Both the position numbers and the translations under genes were made by a program. A stretch of 34,779 bases of DNA from K189A clade bacterium (lineage in GTDB: Bacteria > Pseudomonadota > Gammaproteobacteria > Pseudomonadales > Azotimanducaceae). The first letter of the stretch is position 1. Each line of letters begins with the position of its first letter. Shown here one piece after another: positions 26,712 to 33,208 of this stretch. The stretch is taken from assembly GCA_018607685.1 (NCBI GenBank), contig JABBBA010000227.1, forward strand, positions 1 through 34,779, written 5' to 3'. The notes under the pieces are model-generated. The model was given only the letters and a program-made list of their open reading frames with translations. It ran no database searches and was not told where the DNA came from.

Positions 26712-28487
26712 ATGAATCAAAGAATCACACAGCTTGATAAGCGTCTCTCAAACCAGATTGCTGCCGGTGAGGTCGTGGAACGACCGGCCTCCGTTGTTAA
26801 AGAGATGCTTGAAAACTCACTGGATGCCGGCGCAACCAGGATAGAGATTGATGTTGAGGCCGGGGGCGTGAAGCTCATCCGAGTTCGTGACGATGGCAGG
26901 GGAATCCACCAGGATGACCTGAACCTCGCGCTCGCCCGTCATGCCACCAGCAAGATCAAGGATCAGGGCGATCTTGAAACCATTGAGACACTTGGGTTTC
27001 GCGGTGAAGCGCTGGCAAGTGTCGCATCGATATCCCGGTTGAAACTAACGACCAACACCTCCGAAGATGCCTCCTCCGGCTGGAGCGTTCAGGCATCCGG
27101 TGCAGATATGCAGGTTGAAATCTCACCGTCACCTCATCCCCGCGGTACAACCGTTGAGATACGAGAGCTGTTTTTTAACACGCCTGCCCGAAGGAAATTC
27201 CTAAGAACAGAGCGGACTGAGTTCCTGAAAGTGGAGGAAGTGGTTCGTAAGGTAAGTCTCAGCCATCCAGGTGTCAGTTTTGTCCTGAGCCACAACGGAA
27301 AAATAACCAAACAATATATAGGTGACGATGAAGAGCGCAGGGTTGCCAGTGTGTTTGGCGCGGCTTTTCTGGACAGTTCAATATTCTTCTCGGAAGAACG
27401 TGGGGGTATGGAGCTCCGGGGCTGGATAGGGTTGCCAACCTACTCGCGCAGTCAGGCCGACCAACAGTTCTTTTTTGTTAACGGGCGCATTATCAGGGAC
27501 AAGGTGATTACCCACGCGGTGAAGCAGGGCTACTCGGATGTTCTGTATCACGGTCGAAACCCTGTTTATTGTCTGTTTCTCTCGATCAACCCGCGGCTGG
27601 TGGATGTGAACGTACATCCCACCAAACACGAGGTCCGGTTCCGTGAAAGTCGTGATGTTCATAACTTTATCTACGGTACGATTCATCATGTTCTGGCAGA
27701 CGTTCGTCCTGAAGACTCAAATGCAGGAGAAGCTAACCCTCTGCTCGCTGGAGTTCCCGCAGGAACGGGTCCCATGCAGGCGCCGATGTCCTTCGGGGGT
27801 CGGTCGGGCTCGCAGGGTGTTCGAGATCCGCAAATGTCTGTATACCGCGAGATGTTCGCGAAAGATCCCGTTGCAACGCTCCCTGAATCAGATGACGTTA
27901 CGATGCCCCCGCTCGGTTACGCCGTTGCCCAACTACACGGCATCTATATTCTCGCCGAGAATAAGGCGGGTCTTATTCTTGTTGATATGCATGCGGCGCA
28001 CGAGCGCATCACCTATGAGCACATGAAGACAGCGGTTGATTCTGAAGGAATTCGTAGTCAGCCTATGTTGGTGCCCCTTTCTATTGTTGTTAGTGAAAAA
28101 GAAGCAGATCTGGTTGAGGAGCACGGAGTCGAATTTTCAGGCTTAGGTATTGACCTGGAGCGGGCAAGTGAAGAGTCCATCATTGTGCGTAGCGTTCCGA
28201 CACTGTTGGCAAAGAGCGATGTCGAACAGTTAGTGCGTGATGTCCTTTCTGACTTTGCGGAATATGGCGAGAGTAAACGTATTGAGCAACACCGGGATGA
28301 AATTCTTTCAACGATGGCCTGCCATGGCTCCGTTCGAGCAAACAGGCGACTAGCGATTCCAGAGATGAATGCCCTGCTACGCGACATGGAAGAAACCGAA
28401 CGATCCGGCCAATGTAACCATGGACGACCTACCTGGTGCGAATTCAGCCTGGCAGAGCTTGACAGCCTATTCCTGAGAGGTCGGTAG
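26712..28487 (+). CDS. mutL: DNA mismatch repair protein MutL
   Basis: MutL links MutS mismatch recognition to strand incision. The 591 residues have the N-terminal GHKL ATPase: [42 protein letters not shown] and [16 protein letters not shown], with [11 protein letters not shown] closing the domain. The C-terminal domain (about 395-591) contains [12 protein letters not shown] (D425-E436), close to the DQHA(X)2E(X)4E endonuclease motif with Met for Gln. It also has the companion blocks [12 protein letters not shown] and CNHGRPTW. This looks like a MutL with its own nicking activity, as in Pseudomonas, rather than the MutH-dependent E. coli type, though that is inference. It starts 19 bp after amiB and ends 2 bp before miaA. 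Confidence 0.96.
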
Positions 28488-28489
28488 GT

Positions 28490-29410
28490 TTGAACGGAGC
28501 ACTCGTGATTACTGGCCCAACTGCCTGTGGTAAATCACAACTTACGCTGGAGCTGGCAAGGCATTTCGGCGCAGAGATCATCAGTGCAGATTCCGCACAG
28601 GTTTACCGGGGCATGACTATCGGCTCAGCCAAGCCTGATGCCGCGACGCTGGCGGAGGTAAAGCATCATCTGATCGATATTCGAGACCCGGATGATCCCT
28701 ATTCTGCGGCTGACTTTCGCAAAGACTGTATTGCGCTCGTCTCCCGGATACACAGCGAAGGGAAATTGCCGATCATTTCCGGCGGCACCATGTTGTATCT
28801 CAAGGGTCTAAAGGAAGGCCTGGCGGATCTTCCCGCGGCCGACCCTGACATTAGAGCCGAAATATTGCGTGAGGCGGAAGAACATGGCTGGGCGCATGTG
28901 CATGATGAACTGCAGAGGGTCGACCCTGAATCCTCGAAACGGATCAGACCGTCAGACCCCCAGCGGCTTCAACGGGCGATTGAGGTCTTTCGCCTGACGG
29001 GCGTGCCATTATCGATACTGCATCGTCAATCGGTTGAAGCATGCCCTTTTCCACTGCTCGAGATAGCCATTGTTCCCAGTGACCGTTTGGCGCTGCATCA
29101 GGCGATAGAGGTCCGTTTCAGGGAAATGTTGAAAGCCGGTTTTGTAGGGGAGGTTCAGATGCTGCGGGAGCAACCCGGGGTTCATGCTCAGCTTCCGGCG
29201 ATAAAGGCCGTGGGATATCGCCAGATCTGGTCGTTTCTTGAGGGTGAAATTGATGAGCAAACCATGATCGAGACCGCGCTGGCGGCGACCCGACAGCTGG
29301 CTAAGCGGCAACATACCTGGTTGCGGAGCTGGAAGGACCTCCATTTGCTTGAGGCGGCAAATACTCAGCAGGCCTTGAAAATCATGACTAACAGCACCAT
29401 ATTAGGATAG
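28490..29410 (+). CDS. miaA: tRNA dimethylallyltransferase
   Basis: MiaA adds the isopentenyl group from DMAPP to A37 of tRNAs reading UNN codons. The 306 residues (E. coli 316) include the P-loop GPTACGKSQL (about 9-18), SADSAQVYRGMTIGSAKP, HHLIDIRDPDDPYSAADF, SGGTMLYLKGLKEGL and PAIKAVGYRQIW. The TTG at 28490 is the only start that precedes the P-loop with a normal distance, and it lies 2 bp after the mutL stop, so coupling is likely. The downstream hfq follows after a 132-bp leader, as in the conserved miaA-hfq arrangement. Confidence 0.95.
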   Translation: MNGALVITGPTACGKSQLTLELARHFGAEIISADSAQVYRGMTIGSAKPDAATLAEVKHHLIDIRDPDDPYSAADFRKDCIALVSRIHSEGKLPIISGGTMLYLKGLKEGLADLPAADPDIRAEILREAEEHGWAHVHDELQRVDPESSKRIRPSDPQRLQRAIEVFRLTGVPLSILHRQSVEACPFPLLEIAIVPSDRLALHQAIEVRFREMLKAGFVGEVQMLREQPGVHAQLPAIKAVGYRQIWSFLEGEIDEQTMIETALAATRQLAKRQHTWLRSWKDLHLLEAANTQQALKIMTNSTILG

Positions 29411-29518: not shown

Positions 29519-29542
29519 AGACAGGAATCCCAGGAGAGCAAC

Positions 29543-29773
29543 ATGTCAAAAGGGCAGTCTTTACAAGACCCTTTTCTTAATGCGCTGCGGAAAGACAAAA
29601 TCCCGGTATCGATCTATCTGGTCAGCGGGATCAAGTTGCAGGGACAGATAGAATCGTTTGACCAGTTTGTCATTCTATTGCGAAACACCGTAAATCAGAT
29701 GATCTACAAGTCAGCGATCTCAACCGTCGTGCCTTCACGTGCAGTGAAGATGCCTACCGAAGGAACTGAATAA
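29543..29773 (+). CDS. hfq: RNA chaperone Hfq (variant RNA-binding faces)
   Basis: Hfq is the hexameric Sm-like RNA chaperone for sRNA-mRNA pairing. The 76 residues contain the Sm core with only a short C-terminal tail (E. coli 102). [41 protein letters not shown] and [10 protein letters not shown] are conserved, with proximal-site Q8, Q41 and K56 present. Three positions differ from the usual gammaproteobacterial form: residue 57 is Ser in YKSA instead of His in YKHA (proximal pore), residue 28 is Ser instead of Asn (distal face), and the rim reads RKDK at 16-19 instead of RRER. A good Shine-Dalgarno (AGGAGAG) precedes the ATG. It lies between miaA and hflX as usual. Confidence 0.97.
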
Positions 29774-29775
29774 GC

Positions 29776-31074
29776 TTGTTTTTAGACCGACCTGAATCCG
29801 GTAGCAAAGCGTTGCTGGTGCATATACAGAAGTACAATTCCGAACTTGCGACCCCTGAAGAGTTAAAAGAACTCGTAACCTCAGCCGGTCTTGTTCCCGT
29901 TGGGTGTCTTTCAAGCAACCGCCGGTTTCCGCATCCGGGGACCTTTATCGGTGGTGGTAAGGTAGATGAAATCGCTGAATTTCTGACCACGACAAACTGT
30001 GACCTTGTCGTTTTTGGTGATGACCTGTCGCCGACTCAGGAACGAAATCTTGAACAGGTCCTGGACAAACGTGTCCTGGGTCGTACGGGTTTGATTCTTG
30101 AAATATTTGCCAGAAGGGCAAGAACCCACGAAGGTAAGCTTCAGGTGGAACTGGCACAACTCGATCATGCTTCTTCACGTCTGGTTCGAGGCTGGTCACA
30201 CCTTGATCGTCAGAGAGGTGGTTCCGGCCGTGGTGCGGGTGCTTCTTCTGGTCTGGGCGGTGCAGGAGAAACCCAGCTTGAGTCGGATCAGCGTATGGTT
30301 TCCGACCGAATCAAGAGAATCAACGGGCGTCTTGCGAAGGTTCAGTCTCAACGTGAACACAACCGAAAAGGACGAACCCGTTCGGACGTAAAAACAATTT
30401 CACTCGCTGGATACACCAATGCAGGCAAGTCAACGCTGTTCAATCAGTTATGTACCGCAGACGTACTGACAGAGAATCAGTTGTTCGCTACCCTGGACCC
30501 CACGCTTCGAAAACTTGAGCTGCCGGTAATTGGAAACGCTGTTTTGGCGGATACCGTTGGGTTTATTCGTCAACTTCCACACTCCTTGGTCGATGCCTTT
30601 CGAGCTACCCTTGAGGAGGTTAGCGAGGCTGATTTGATTCTTCACGTGGTTGATGCGGCATCGGCTTTGCGAAGCGAACAAATTAGCGAAGTGAATCTGG
30701 TGCTGGAAGAGATTGGCGCTGAAGCGACACCTCAGCTAATGGTCTACAACAAGGTGGATCTTTTGGATGAAAAACCAAGAATTGAACGAAATTCCCAGGG
30801 AGTTGTAGTAAAAGTCTGGGTCTCAAGTATCGATGGCTCGGGAAAGGAGTTGCTGCTCGAGGCGATTGCAGAGCGAATAGGTGAATCAGTCATAGAGACT
30901 AATGTTACAGTTCGGCCTGAGGATGGCCGAATCAGGGCCAGGTTTTTTGAGCTTGGTGCCGTTTTGGATGAAACGCCCTGTGAAGATGGGTCTGTAGAGA
31001 TGCATCTTAGAATCCAGGAGAGCAGCCTGCGAAAAATTACTCAGGATGAGCTTGTGGGACAATCCGTTCCCTAG
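29776..31074 (+). CDS. hflX: Ribosome-associated GTPase HflX
   Basis: HflX splits stalled or stressed 70S ribosomes using GTP. The 432 residues show the N-terminal HflX domain (PGTFIGGGKVDEIAEFL, FGDDLSPTQERNLE, ILEIFARRARTHEGKLQVELAQLDH) and a glycine-rich linker (GSGRGAGASSGLGGAGETQLE). The G domain follows: G1 GYTNAGKST (from G212), G2 DPTLRKLELP, G3 DTVGFI, G4 NKVDL and G5 VSSIDGSG. The TTG at 29776, 2 bp after the hfq stop, gives the family N-terminus FLDRPESGSKALLVHI and is preferred. hflK follows after 116 bp that contain a strong hairpin. Confidence 0.96.
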   Translation: MFLDRPESGSKALLVHIQKYNSELATPEELKELVTSAGLVPVGCLSSNRRFPHPGTFIGGGKVDEIAEFLTTTNCDLVVFGDDLSPTQERNLEQVLDKRVLGRTGLILEIFARRARTHEGKLQVELAQLDHASSRLVRGWSHLDRQRGGSGRGAGASSGLGGAGETQLESDQRMVSDRIKRINGRLAKVQSQREHNRKGRTRSDVKTISLAGYTNAGKSTLFNQLCTADVLTENQLFATLDPTLRKLELPVIGNAVLADTVGFIRQLPHSLVDAFRATLEEVSEADLILHVVDAASALRSEQISEVNLVLEEIGAEATPQLMVYNKVDLLDEKPRIERNSQGVVVKVWVSSIDGSGKELLLEAIAERIGESVIETNVTVRPEDGRIRARFFELGAVLDETPCEDGSVEMHLRIQESSLRKITQDELVGQSVP

Positions 31075-31190: not shown

Positions 31191-32330
31191 ATGGCTTGGA
31201 ATGAACCAGGCGGTGGAGACCAGGGCGACAAAGACCCCTGGGGAAATCGAGACAAAGACGGACCGCCGGATCTAGACGAGGCGTTTCGCAAATTACAGGC
31301 AAACCTGTCCCAGATGTTTGGCGGGGGCAATCGCTCCAACCCGTCCGGTGGCGGGTCGAAGCCGTTCAATATGAACATGATCTGGCTGGGGCTGCTGGTC
31401 ATTGCCGTTATTTATGGCGTGATGGGTGTTTATACCGTCGACCAGCAGGAGCGCGGTGTTGTGCTTCGGTTTGGTAAGAAGCTTGATGAGATTGTGCTCC
31501 CCGGATTGCACTGGAACGCGCCACTCATTGACCGGGTGCTTATCGAAAATGTCACCAGGGTCCGGTCCAGACCGCATGATTCAGAGATGCTTACGGAAGA
31601 TGAAAACATCGTTAAGGTGAAGATGACGGTTCAATATGTCATCGATGACATCATGGCGTATAAACTGAACGTTCGGGAGCCCGACAAGAGTCTTCATCAG
31701 GCGACGGAAAGCGCGCTGCGCCATGTGGTTGGTTCGACTGAAATGCATGAAGTATTGACCGAAGGTCGTGCTGAAGTGGCCATTGCGGTTAAAGATAGAA
31801 TTCAGACTTATATGACCAACTATGGCACCGGTATTAGTGTCACCGAGGTCAATATTGATGAAACGGCGCCGCCGGATGCGGTACGCGCCGCCTTCGATGA
31901 CGTGATTAAGGCGCGTGAGGACGAAGTCCGACTCAGAAATGAGGCTGATGCCTACGCCAACCAAATAGTCCCGGAAGCTCGAGGGGAAGCGCAGAGATAT
32001 ACCGAAGAGGCAGAGGGTTACAAACAAAGAGTGATATCTCAGTCGCGTGGTGAAGCGGAACGCTTTAACAAACTTTATGCAGAATACAGGCTGGCACCGG
32101 AAGTGATGAGAACCCGAATGTATCTTGATACGGTGGAAAGCGTCCTGTCGAGTTCTACCAAGATCATGATTGATGTGGAGGGAGGTAACAATATCCTGTA
32201 CCTGCCTCTGGATAAGATCCTGGAGCAAAACCGGGCAGGCAATGTTACAACTGGCCGAGCGGCTGAGAACGATACCGGGCCGAACTATGGTAATCAGATT
32301 GACACTCGCGATAGAAGGGAGAGACGCTAA
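31191..32330 (+). CDS. hflK: FtsH protease modulator HflK
   Basis: HflK forms, with HflC, a large inner-membrane SPFH complex that encloses and regulates the FtsH protease. The 379 residues (E. coli 419) begin with a Gly/Asp-rich cytoplasmic tail (MAWNEPGGGDQGDKDPWG, the usual HflK opening), then one membrane span (about 62-84, MIWLGLLVIAVIYGVMGVYTV) and a periplasmic SPFH/band 7 domain from QQERGVVLRFGKKLDE. Later come YVIDDIMAYKLNV and SALRHVVGSTEMHEVLTEGR, and a long helical Glu/Arg/Ala-rich part near residues 240-300. The Shine-Dalgarno AGGAG lies 6 bp before the ATG. The stop overlaps the hflC start by one base (TAATG). Confidence 0.96.
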   Translation: MAWNEPGGGDQGDKDPWGNRDKDGPPDLDEAFRKLQANLSQMFGGGNRSNPSGGGSKPFNMNMIWLGLLVIAVIYGVMGVYTVDQQERGVVLRFGKKLDEIVLPGLHWNAPLIDRVLIENVTRVRSRPHDSEMLTEDENIVKVKMTVQYVIDDIMAYKLNVREPDKSLHQATESALRHVVGSTEMHEVLTEGRAEVAIAVKDRIQTYMTNYGTGISVTEVNIDETAPPDAVRAAFDDVIKAREDEVRLRNEADAYANQIVPEARGEAQRYTEEAEGYKQRVISQSRGEAERFNKLYAEYRLAPEVMRTRMYLDTVESVLSSSTKIMIDVEGGNNILYLPLDKILEQNRAGNVTTGRAAENDTGPNYGNQIDTRDRRERR

Positions 32331-33208
32331 TGGGTAATCGATCTTTTGTAGTCGGATTTATCTTGGTTCTACTGGGATTGTTGGGCATGAACTCGATATA
32401 CATCGTGACCGAGGTAGAACGAGGTATCTTGCTGGAGTTTGGTCGGGTCGTTAACGATGACATCAAGCCAGGCCTGCACGTGAAGCTTCCAATCATTAAC
32501 GAAGTACGGACGTTTGATGCTCGAGTACTGACGTCTGATGCACCGTCGGAGCGTTTTCTGACTCTTGAAAAGAAGGCGGTCATTGTTGATTCGTTCGCAA
32601 AATATAAAATTGATAATGTGCAGACTTACTACACCGCAACCTCGGGTGATGAACGGCGAGCAGAGGAACTGCTGAAGCAGCGAATCAATAACGGGCTGCG
32701 AAATGAAATCAGTAGTCGAACCCTGCACGAGGTTGTGTCCGGTGAGCGTGATGAGCTGATGCATGTGCTGACTGAGAGGCTTAATGAAGTTGCCCAGGTG
32801 GAGTTGGGTGTCACGGTGGTTGATGTTCGGGTTAAGCGAATCGATCTTCCGCCTGAGGTCAGCCAGTCGGTTTATAACCGCATGAACACCGAGCGTGATA
32901 TTGAAGCCCGGGAGCATCGTGCTAAAGGTCAGGAACTGGCCGTTGGGATACGGGCCGATGCTGACAAGCAACGCGAGGTGATACTCGCTGAAGCTTACAG
33001 TAGAGCTGAAGAGGTTCGCGGTGAAGGTGACGCGTCATCTGCGAGCATCTATGCCTCTGCTTTCACCAAGGATAAGGAATTCTATGAGTTTACGCGTAGC
33101 ATGTCGGCGTATCAGCGAACGTTTTCCAATAAAGGAGATGTCCTGTTGATTCAACCCGATAGCGAATTCTTCAAGTACCTGAACAACCGTGCAGGCGGGG
33201 ATCGTTGA
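32330..33208 (+). CDS. hflC: FtsH protease modulator HflC
   Basis: HflC is the partner of HflK in the FtsH-associated SPFH assembly. The 292 residues (E. coli 334) have an N-terminal membrane anchor (about 5-25, FVVGFILVLLGLLGMNSIYIV) and the SPFH domain starting at EVERGILLEFGRVVNDDIKPGLHVKLP. The family block LTLEKKAVIVDSFAKYKI and the coiled AEAYSRAEEVRGEGDASSASIYASAF near residues 220-245 follow. The C-terminus FYEFTRSMSAYQRTF...DSEFFKYL is typical. Translation is probably coupled to hflK through the TAATG overlap. A clear terminator follows 40 bp downstream. Confidence 0.96.
   Translation: MGNRSFVVGFILVLLGLLGMNSIYIVTEVERGILLEFGRVVNDDIKPGLHVKLPIINEVRTFDARVLTSDAPSERFLTLEKKAVIVDSFAKYKIDNVQTYYTATSGDERRAEELLKQRINNGLRNEISSRTLHEVVSGERDELMHVLTERLNEVAQVELGVTVVDVRVKRIDLPPEVSQSVYNRMNTERDIEAREHRAKGQELAVGIRADADKQREVILAEAYSRAEEVRGEGDASSASIYASAFTKDKEFYEFTRSMSAYQRTFSNKGDVLLIQPDSEFFKYLNNRAGGDR

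Follow-up and report, generated by a model that had tools for sequence, protein, structure and literature searches.

The histidine at position 57 of Hfq is counted among the conserved residues of the proximal site, where the 3' ends of sRNAs are read, and it is reportedly important for the organisation of the hexamer, as the title of a 2010 report by Moskaleva has it. Its position is described as favorable for contacts with both the terminal 3'-OH (PMC5379935) and the ribose 2'-OH (PMC4337610, PMC10628458); in P. aeruginosa, Y55 stacks on His57 (PMC9228748). The H57A variant of E. coli retained 66.5 +/- 17.0% of wild-type binding to DsrA and 72.7 +/- 5.0% of that to RNA I, and the K56A variant 24.4% and 36.1%, respectively (PMC11012335). 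H57A was also among 25 E. coli alanine variants whose viable counts dropped by at least 25% during nitrogen starvation, and the same study places V54 at the monomer interface (PMC11770335). At the second A site of the distal face, the contact made by N28 is water-mediated (PMC10628458). On the rim, R16, R17 and R19 are highly conserved in Gram-negative bacteria, and more rim arginines lead to more annealing, according to a review (PMC10628458); in a preprint, R16A nearly abolished the sRNA-mRNA pairs recovered by RIL-seq and left some regulation (PMC12262471).

The window analyzed here, a stretch of 34,779 nucleotides from an assembly of a K189A clade bacterium, contains the gene cluster mutL-miaA-hfq-hflX-hflK-hflC, with hisZ also among the neighbors (Table 1). 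The order miaA-hfq-hflX-hflKC is usual in gammaproteobacteria, and the window fits it. The strand opposite the hfq ORF carries stops throughout. The ORF matched the Pfam model PF17209 (E value 4.7e-28, 97 bits against a cut-off of 27) and the NCBIfam Hfq equivalogs NF001602 (132.9 against 95) and TIGR02383 (92.3 against 61.7), and its product aligned without gaps to the solved Hfq chains 1hk9 and 1u1s, which we take to be those of E. coli and P. aeruginosa, respectively. The proximal pocket residues Q8, Q41, F42, Y55 and K56 and the rim residue R16 were all present. By profiles and gene context, this is a genuine and complete hfq and an ordinary orthologue, in agreement with the first-pass annotation, which had called its core plainly Hfq. 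The residues named there (R16, K17, D18 and K19 on the rim, S28 and S57) were likewise confirmed by translation. The histidine of the Sm2 stretch YKHA, a highly characteristic residue, was absent, and the curated Hfq profiles are passed without it; the label of canonical Hfq therefore falls, though family membership stands. No second hfq was found in the window's genome (450 contigs, 82.6% completeness), and a search of the window for Rfam families gave no match at gathering thresholds.

Table 1. Features of the hfq locus in the window, and loci of related genomes in which hfq is broken or missing
Feature	Position	Strand	Basis or remark
hfq, Ser57 variant, 76 aa	29543..29773	+	translation, profiles
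Shine-Dalgarno-like AGGAG	29532..29536	+	6 bases 5' of ATG, read directly
rim codons 16-19 = R K D K	29588..29599	+	translation, structure-chain alignment
codon 28, AGC = Ser	29624..29626	+	translation, structure-chain alignment
codon 54, ATC = Ile	29702..29704	+	translation
codon 57, TCA = Ser replacing His	29711..29713	+	translation
mutL (context)	26712..28487	+	profile searches
miaA (context)	28490..29410	+	profile searches
hflX (context)	29776..31074	+	TTG start as listed; 2 bases past hfq stop
hflK (context)	31191..32330	+	profile searches
hflC (context)	32330..33208	+	profile searches
broken or deleted hfq inside the Ser57 clade, four separate	L210:4319-4546, L211:4064-4174, L220:4078-4245, L224:1432-1501		
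mutL-miaA-hflX-hflK cluster without hfq	g16: L225, L227, L228, L230, L232; g128: L229, L231		

Both solved chains carry N28 and H57, and their rims read RRER (1hk9) and RKER (1u1s). The 1u1s chain resembles the window protein in that the two are gap-free over residues 1-72 and share K17 and Q8/Q41/F42/Y55/K56; it is also short (82 aa versus 76 aa), whereas the tail of E. coli Hfq is longer than that of the window protein. It differs in having N28, E18, R19, K47, V54 and H57. The chains 3m4g and 3inz, presumably P. aeruginosa Hfq as well, carry Ala57 and Thr57, so that proteins with a small residue in place of His57 still crystallized. In these chains the remainder of the sequence is unchanged, whereas the Ser57 of the window protein occurs naturally, as the fixed state of a clade. 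E. coli H57A has lost the same imidazole as the window protein; however, its alanine has no hydroxyl, and its background is K47 and V54.

In a draw of 369 genomes from the class, 277 matched the Sm2 pattern QMxYKxxI[ST]T, run as degenerate DNA with any residue at position 57, and 274 of the 277 carried His57; these counts were taken from tallies and per-genome tables, and the 92 genomes without a pattern match were left unjudged. Ser57 thus departs from an almost invariant residue of the proximal pore, as the first-pass annotation had proposed. There were three exceptions: the window with Ser57, and G487 and G715 with Asn57, which share a genus (g226, family f124). The latter two encode a divergent Hfq (L253 and L254) in which the rim arginines are gone (ALQQHN versus ALRRER in E. 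coli) and FDSEV replaces FDQFV, so that the proximal pocket and the rim are both altered. Judged by its sequence, this Hfq is a stronger variant than that of the window.

A scan of one genome per species (84,980 species), which allowed Ser, Thr, Cys, Trp or Arg codons at residue 57, matched 54 stretches, and every one of them read Ser57; agreement among 54 records means that the residue is not the error of a single assembly. Fifty-one of these stretches belong to one clade and are titled OM182 clade, K189A clade, SAR86 cluster, or unnamed Pseudomonadales, Proteobacteria or Gammaproteobacteria, the titles of metagenome-assembled genomes (MAGs) being labels only; its members are uncultured and for the most part marine. 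Fifty of the 51 were placed in the tree described below directly or through an identical contig, and L088, a contig of G004, by genus only. The three stretches outside the clade came from MAGs assigned to Oscillospiraceae (L065), Methanococcoides (L068) and HTCC2207 (L080), with the codons AGC, AGC and TCC, respectively. In L065 and L068, Ser57 lies in Hfq-like proteins. The codon AGC in these two points to separate origins of Ser57, provided that the bins are right.

In a tree of MiaA and HflX (136 rows), the window fell within a branch of 57 rows (SH-aLRT 99) comprising 54 with Ser57, one with His57 (G018), one whose broken gene reads Phe57 (G394) and one lacking hfq (G363). The remaining family rows having hfq carried His57 in 61 of 61, with L080 as a separate Ser57. 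This tree left out 7 of 133 genome rows with fewer than 230 HflX residues (six His57, and G004 with Ser57) and 44 of the 54 loci, namely 42 duplicate contigs of included genomes, all identical to these over the stretch around the Sm2 codons, and L065 and L068, which are without hflX. A five-protein tree of 67 rows, from which eight near-copies were left out, supported the same Ser57 branch at 100. Both trees were quick reconstructions under a simple model, and the base of the Ser57 branch was unresolved in them. All 45 Ser57 codons counted in genome rows of the clade were TCN. When G018, which already carries Ser28, Ile54 and Asp18, was forced outside the rest of the branch, the fit was no worse than that of the unconstrained tree (log-likelihood higher by 0.89; p-AU 0.507). 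A reversal to His in G018 is thus not needed, and because the constrained tree is as good, a single origin of Ser57 after Ser28, Ile54 and Asp18 is the simplest history. Most simply, then, the change from His57 to Ser would have arisen once, near the base of the clade and after Ser28 and Ile54, and become fixed in the lineage.

The first-pass annotation had suggested that three RNA-binding surfaces were altered together. On the tree, the changes required by parsimony numbered three for residue 57, six each for residues 28 and 54, seven for residue 18 and ten for residue 19. Rows with a full hfq combined Ser57 with Ser28 in 43 cases and with Asn28 in 10 (10 of 53), and His57 with Asn28 in 67 and with Ser28 in 4 (4 of 71), which does not support a joint alteration. 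In the window's genus, Asn28 is back in most lineages and Ser57 is kept, while the window's own group again has Ser28. Ser28, Asp18 and Lys19 vary independently of Ser57. A co-variation of Ser57 with Ser28, Ile54, Arg47, Phe25, Asp18 or Lys19 was considered and set aside, as the three independent contrasts put significance out of reach. Of the 52 intact proteins in the Ser57 clade, 51 carry Ile54; G002 has Ser57 without it, so Ile54 is not required. Rims of the RK type were the rule in the window's family, and those of the Ser57 proteins read RKDR (30), RKER (18), RKDK (2), RREK (2) and RKEK (1). Since the window protein keeps one of the three rim arginines (R16), slower annealing is possible. 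The chain length was 75-87 aa in 44 Ser57 loci and 73-103 aa in 57 His57 loci, counts in which a few genomes appear twice and the shortest His57 locus lies near a contig end; 76 aa is therefore ordinary for the group, and so is the short tail. The first-pass annotation had named as refuting an alignment in which its residues are common in functional Hfq of the clade; this is what was seen for residue 28, the rim and the tail, and for Ser57 too inside its own clade, if normal constraint is equated with function, but not for Ser57 outside it. The three named differences are real but unequal in weight, and Ser57 is the unusual one. On the sequences compared, this is one truly unusual, clade-fixed residue in an otherwise normal Hfq.

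None of the 52 intact clade proteins differed at Q8, R16, Q41, F42, Y55 or K56. The mean difference in the Hfq core, a descriptive figure drawn from pairs that are not independent, was 0.077 for Ser57 and 0.078 for His57 at an HflX distance of 0.3-0.4, and 0.100 and 0.140, respectively, at 0.4-0.5. At distances below 0.3, the Hfq-core/HflX ratios were slightly higher for Ser57 than for His57 (0.26/0.18, 0.25/0.23 and 0.19/0.16), and over the distance classes they ranged from 0.19 to 0.26 and from 0.16 to 0.31, respectively; G394, G007, G005, G363 and L080 were left out on the Ser57 side. Three substitutions were commoner in the clade than among the family's His57 proteins: D9E (6 of 52 versus 0 of 62), N48S/D (9 of 52 versus 0 of 62) and Y25F (23 of 52 versus 3 of 62). 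The conserved sites and a pace of change like that of the His57 relatives suggest that the intact Ser57 proteins are functional, and we saw no apparent sign of a general release of constraint on this hfq.

A Pfam search of 120 genomes of the family gave an Hfq match in 107, three of which (G007, G394 and G390) were not whole Hfq genes. In eight genomes, miaA and hflX lay intact on a single contig with no hfq between them: G363 in the Ser57 clade and, outside it, G123, G175, G276, G375 and G405 (genus g16) and G317 and G345 (g128). The miaA-hflX gap was read base by base in G363, G123, G276, G345 and G405. In a ninth hfq-less genome (G390, g16), the 252 bases from hflX in the 5' direction to the contig end contained no Hfq reading. 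The gene was broken in G394 by an in-frame TAG and scattered changes and in G007, where about codons 35-71 are left, and it had lost about the first 20 codons in G005, which is closely related to the species of the window. Overall, 12 of the 126 family rows in the tree had no intact hfq, corresponding to six tree events; four of these fell in the Ser57 clade, each seen in a single assembly (G005, G007, G363 and G394), and this excess was not significant (four of six events in a clade with 34% of the branch length; p = 0.19). The hfq-less g16 and g128 assemblies were 94-97% complete. Genomes without a detected hflX (G006, G020, G337, G343, G348, G355 and G376) were not scored as losses. ProQ (PF04352) was found in 1 of the 120 genomes (G347, family f1); of the 14 genomes used as controls, only that of E. 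coli gave a match.

The Pfam match in G390 was rejected as a surviving Hfq, since the 880-aa frame that carries it scans at 24.9 bits against the cut-off of 27. This frame (L212:2861-5500) is of the GmrSD type (PF03235 and PF07510) with a C-terminal cold-shock domain (PF00313), and its Hfq-like stretch, just below the Pfam cut-off, spans residues 756-806 in a genus without hfq. It also matches PADLOC defence models, such as Orf5 and HEC-06.

We favor, with a probability of roughly 0.7, the view that the window encodes an ordinary Hfq orthologue with a clade-fixed Ser57, whose ring would still work, whose proximal site may be weaker or retuned, and whose other changes would be near-neutral. The protein most likely still forms a hexameric ring, with a proximal face predicted to bind U-rich 3' ends, a distal face predicted to bind A-rich RNA, and sRNA-mRNA annealing at the R16 rim. 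The serine hydroxyl could retain part of the hydrogen bonding of the imidazole to the ribose 2'-OH or the terminal 3'-OH, which would leave proximal binding somewhat weaker or retuned; the contact with the 3'-terminal nucleotide is probably weaker or altered. Ile54 at the subunit interface may offset packing lost with His57, and Ser28 and the rim changes may be neutral or nearly so. That the E. coli H57A variant largely keeps its RNA binding (PMC11012335) supports a working Ser57 Hfq, as do the solved chains with Ala57 and Thr57 and the constancy of the other pocket and rim residues in the clade; its viability cost in nitrogen starvation (PMC11770335) argues against one, as do the reported importance of His57 for the hexamer, the slightly higher close-distance Hfq ratios and the broken or missing hfq in four members of the clade.

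A functional retuning, in which sRNA recognition in the Ser57 clade has moved off the 3'-terminal nucleotide and sRNAs are held more by the distal face and rim, with Ser57, Ile54, Phe25, Ser/Asp48 and Glu9 as its parts, appears unlikely. It would account for Ser57 being held in all intact clade rows save G018 and for the enrichment of Glu9, Ser/Asp48 and Phe25 noted above; however, these residue counts are inflated by related rows, three independent contrasts are too few for a test of co-variation, and no sRNA matched within the window at Rfam gathering thresholds. Relaxed constraint, with Hfq turning dispensable in the family and Ser57 as a mildly damaging step towards loss, is in our view quite improbable. 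The 12 rows without an intact hfq, the scarcity of ProQ and the slightly higher close-distance Hfq/HflX ratios of the Ser57 group are consistent with it, but at larger distances the Ser57 proteins were no more divergent than the His57 proteins, two of the losses occurred in His57 lineages, and the share of events in the clade was within expectation for its branch length (p = 0.19). Nearly all records are titled MAG and the window's own genome is fragmented and incomplete, so that errors of assembly or binning could be suspected behind Ser57 or the losses; this is highly improbable, being hardly tenable for a residue read in 54 of 54 records, and eight of the losses have intact miaA and hflX neighbors on one contig. 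The Ser57 clade, with the rest of the proximal site intact, offers a natural comparison for the contribution of His57, and G018 (His57 with Ser28 and Ile54) a near-ancestral control.

A literature search of partial coverage, which is weak evidence, found no title on Ser57 as a natural state of Hfq or on the loss of hfq among these bacteria, and no paper joining OM182 and Hfq. A more interesting lead than Ser57 is that hfq has been lost repeatedly in the family. The removal of this gene from an otherwise intact cluster constitutes a natural experiment, namely gammaproteobacteria without Hfq and, as far as seen, without ProQ. It is conceivable, though doubtful, that the family, many members of which are marine, is withdrawing stepwise from Hfq/sRNA regulation, with Ser57 followed by hfq loss. 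If so, one branch would have replaced the residue reading sRNA 3' ends while the rest of the protein was kept, and hfq would have gone on to be lost from several Ser57 members and from two further genera, where ProQ is scarce; such bacteria may use another matchmaker or have little trans-acting sRNA control.
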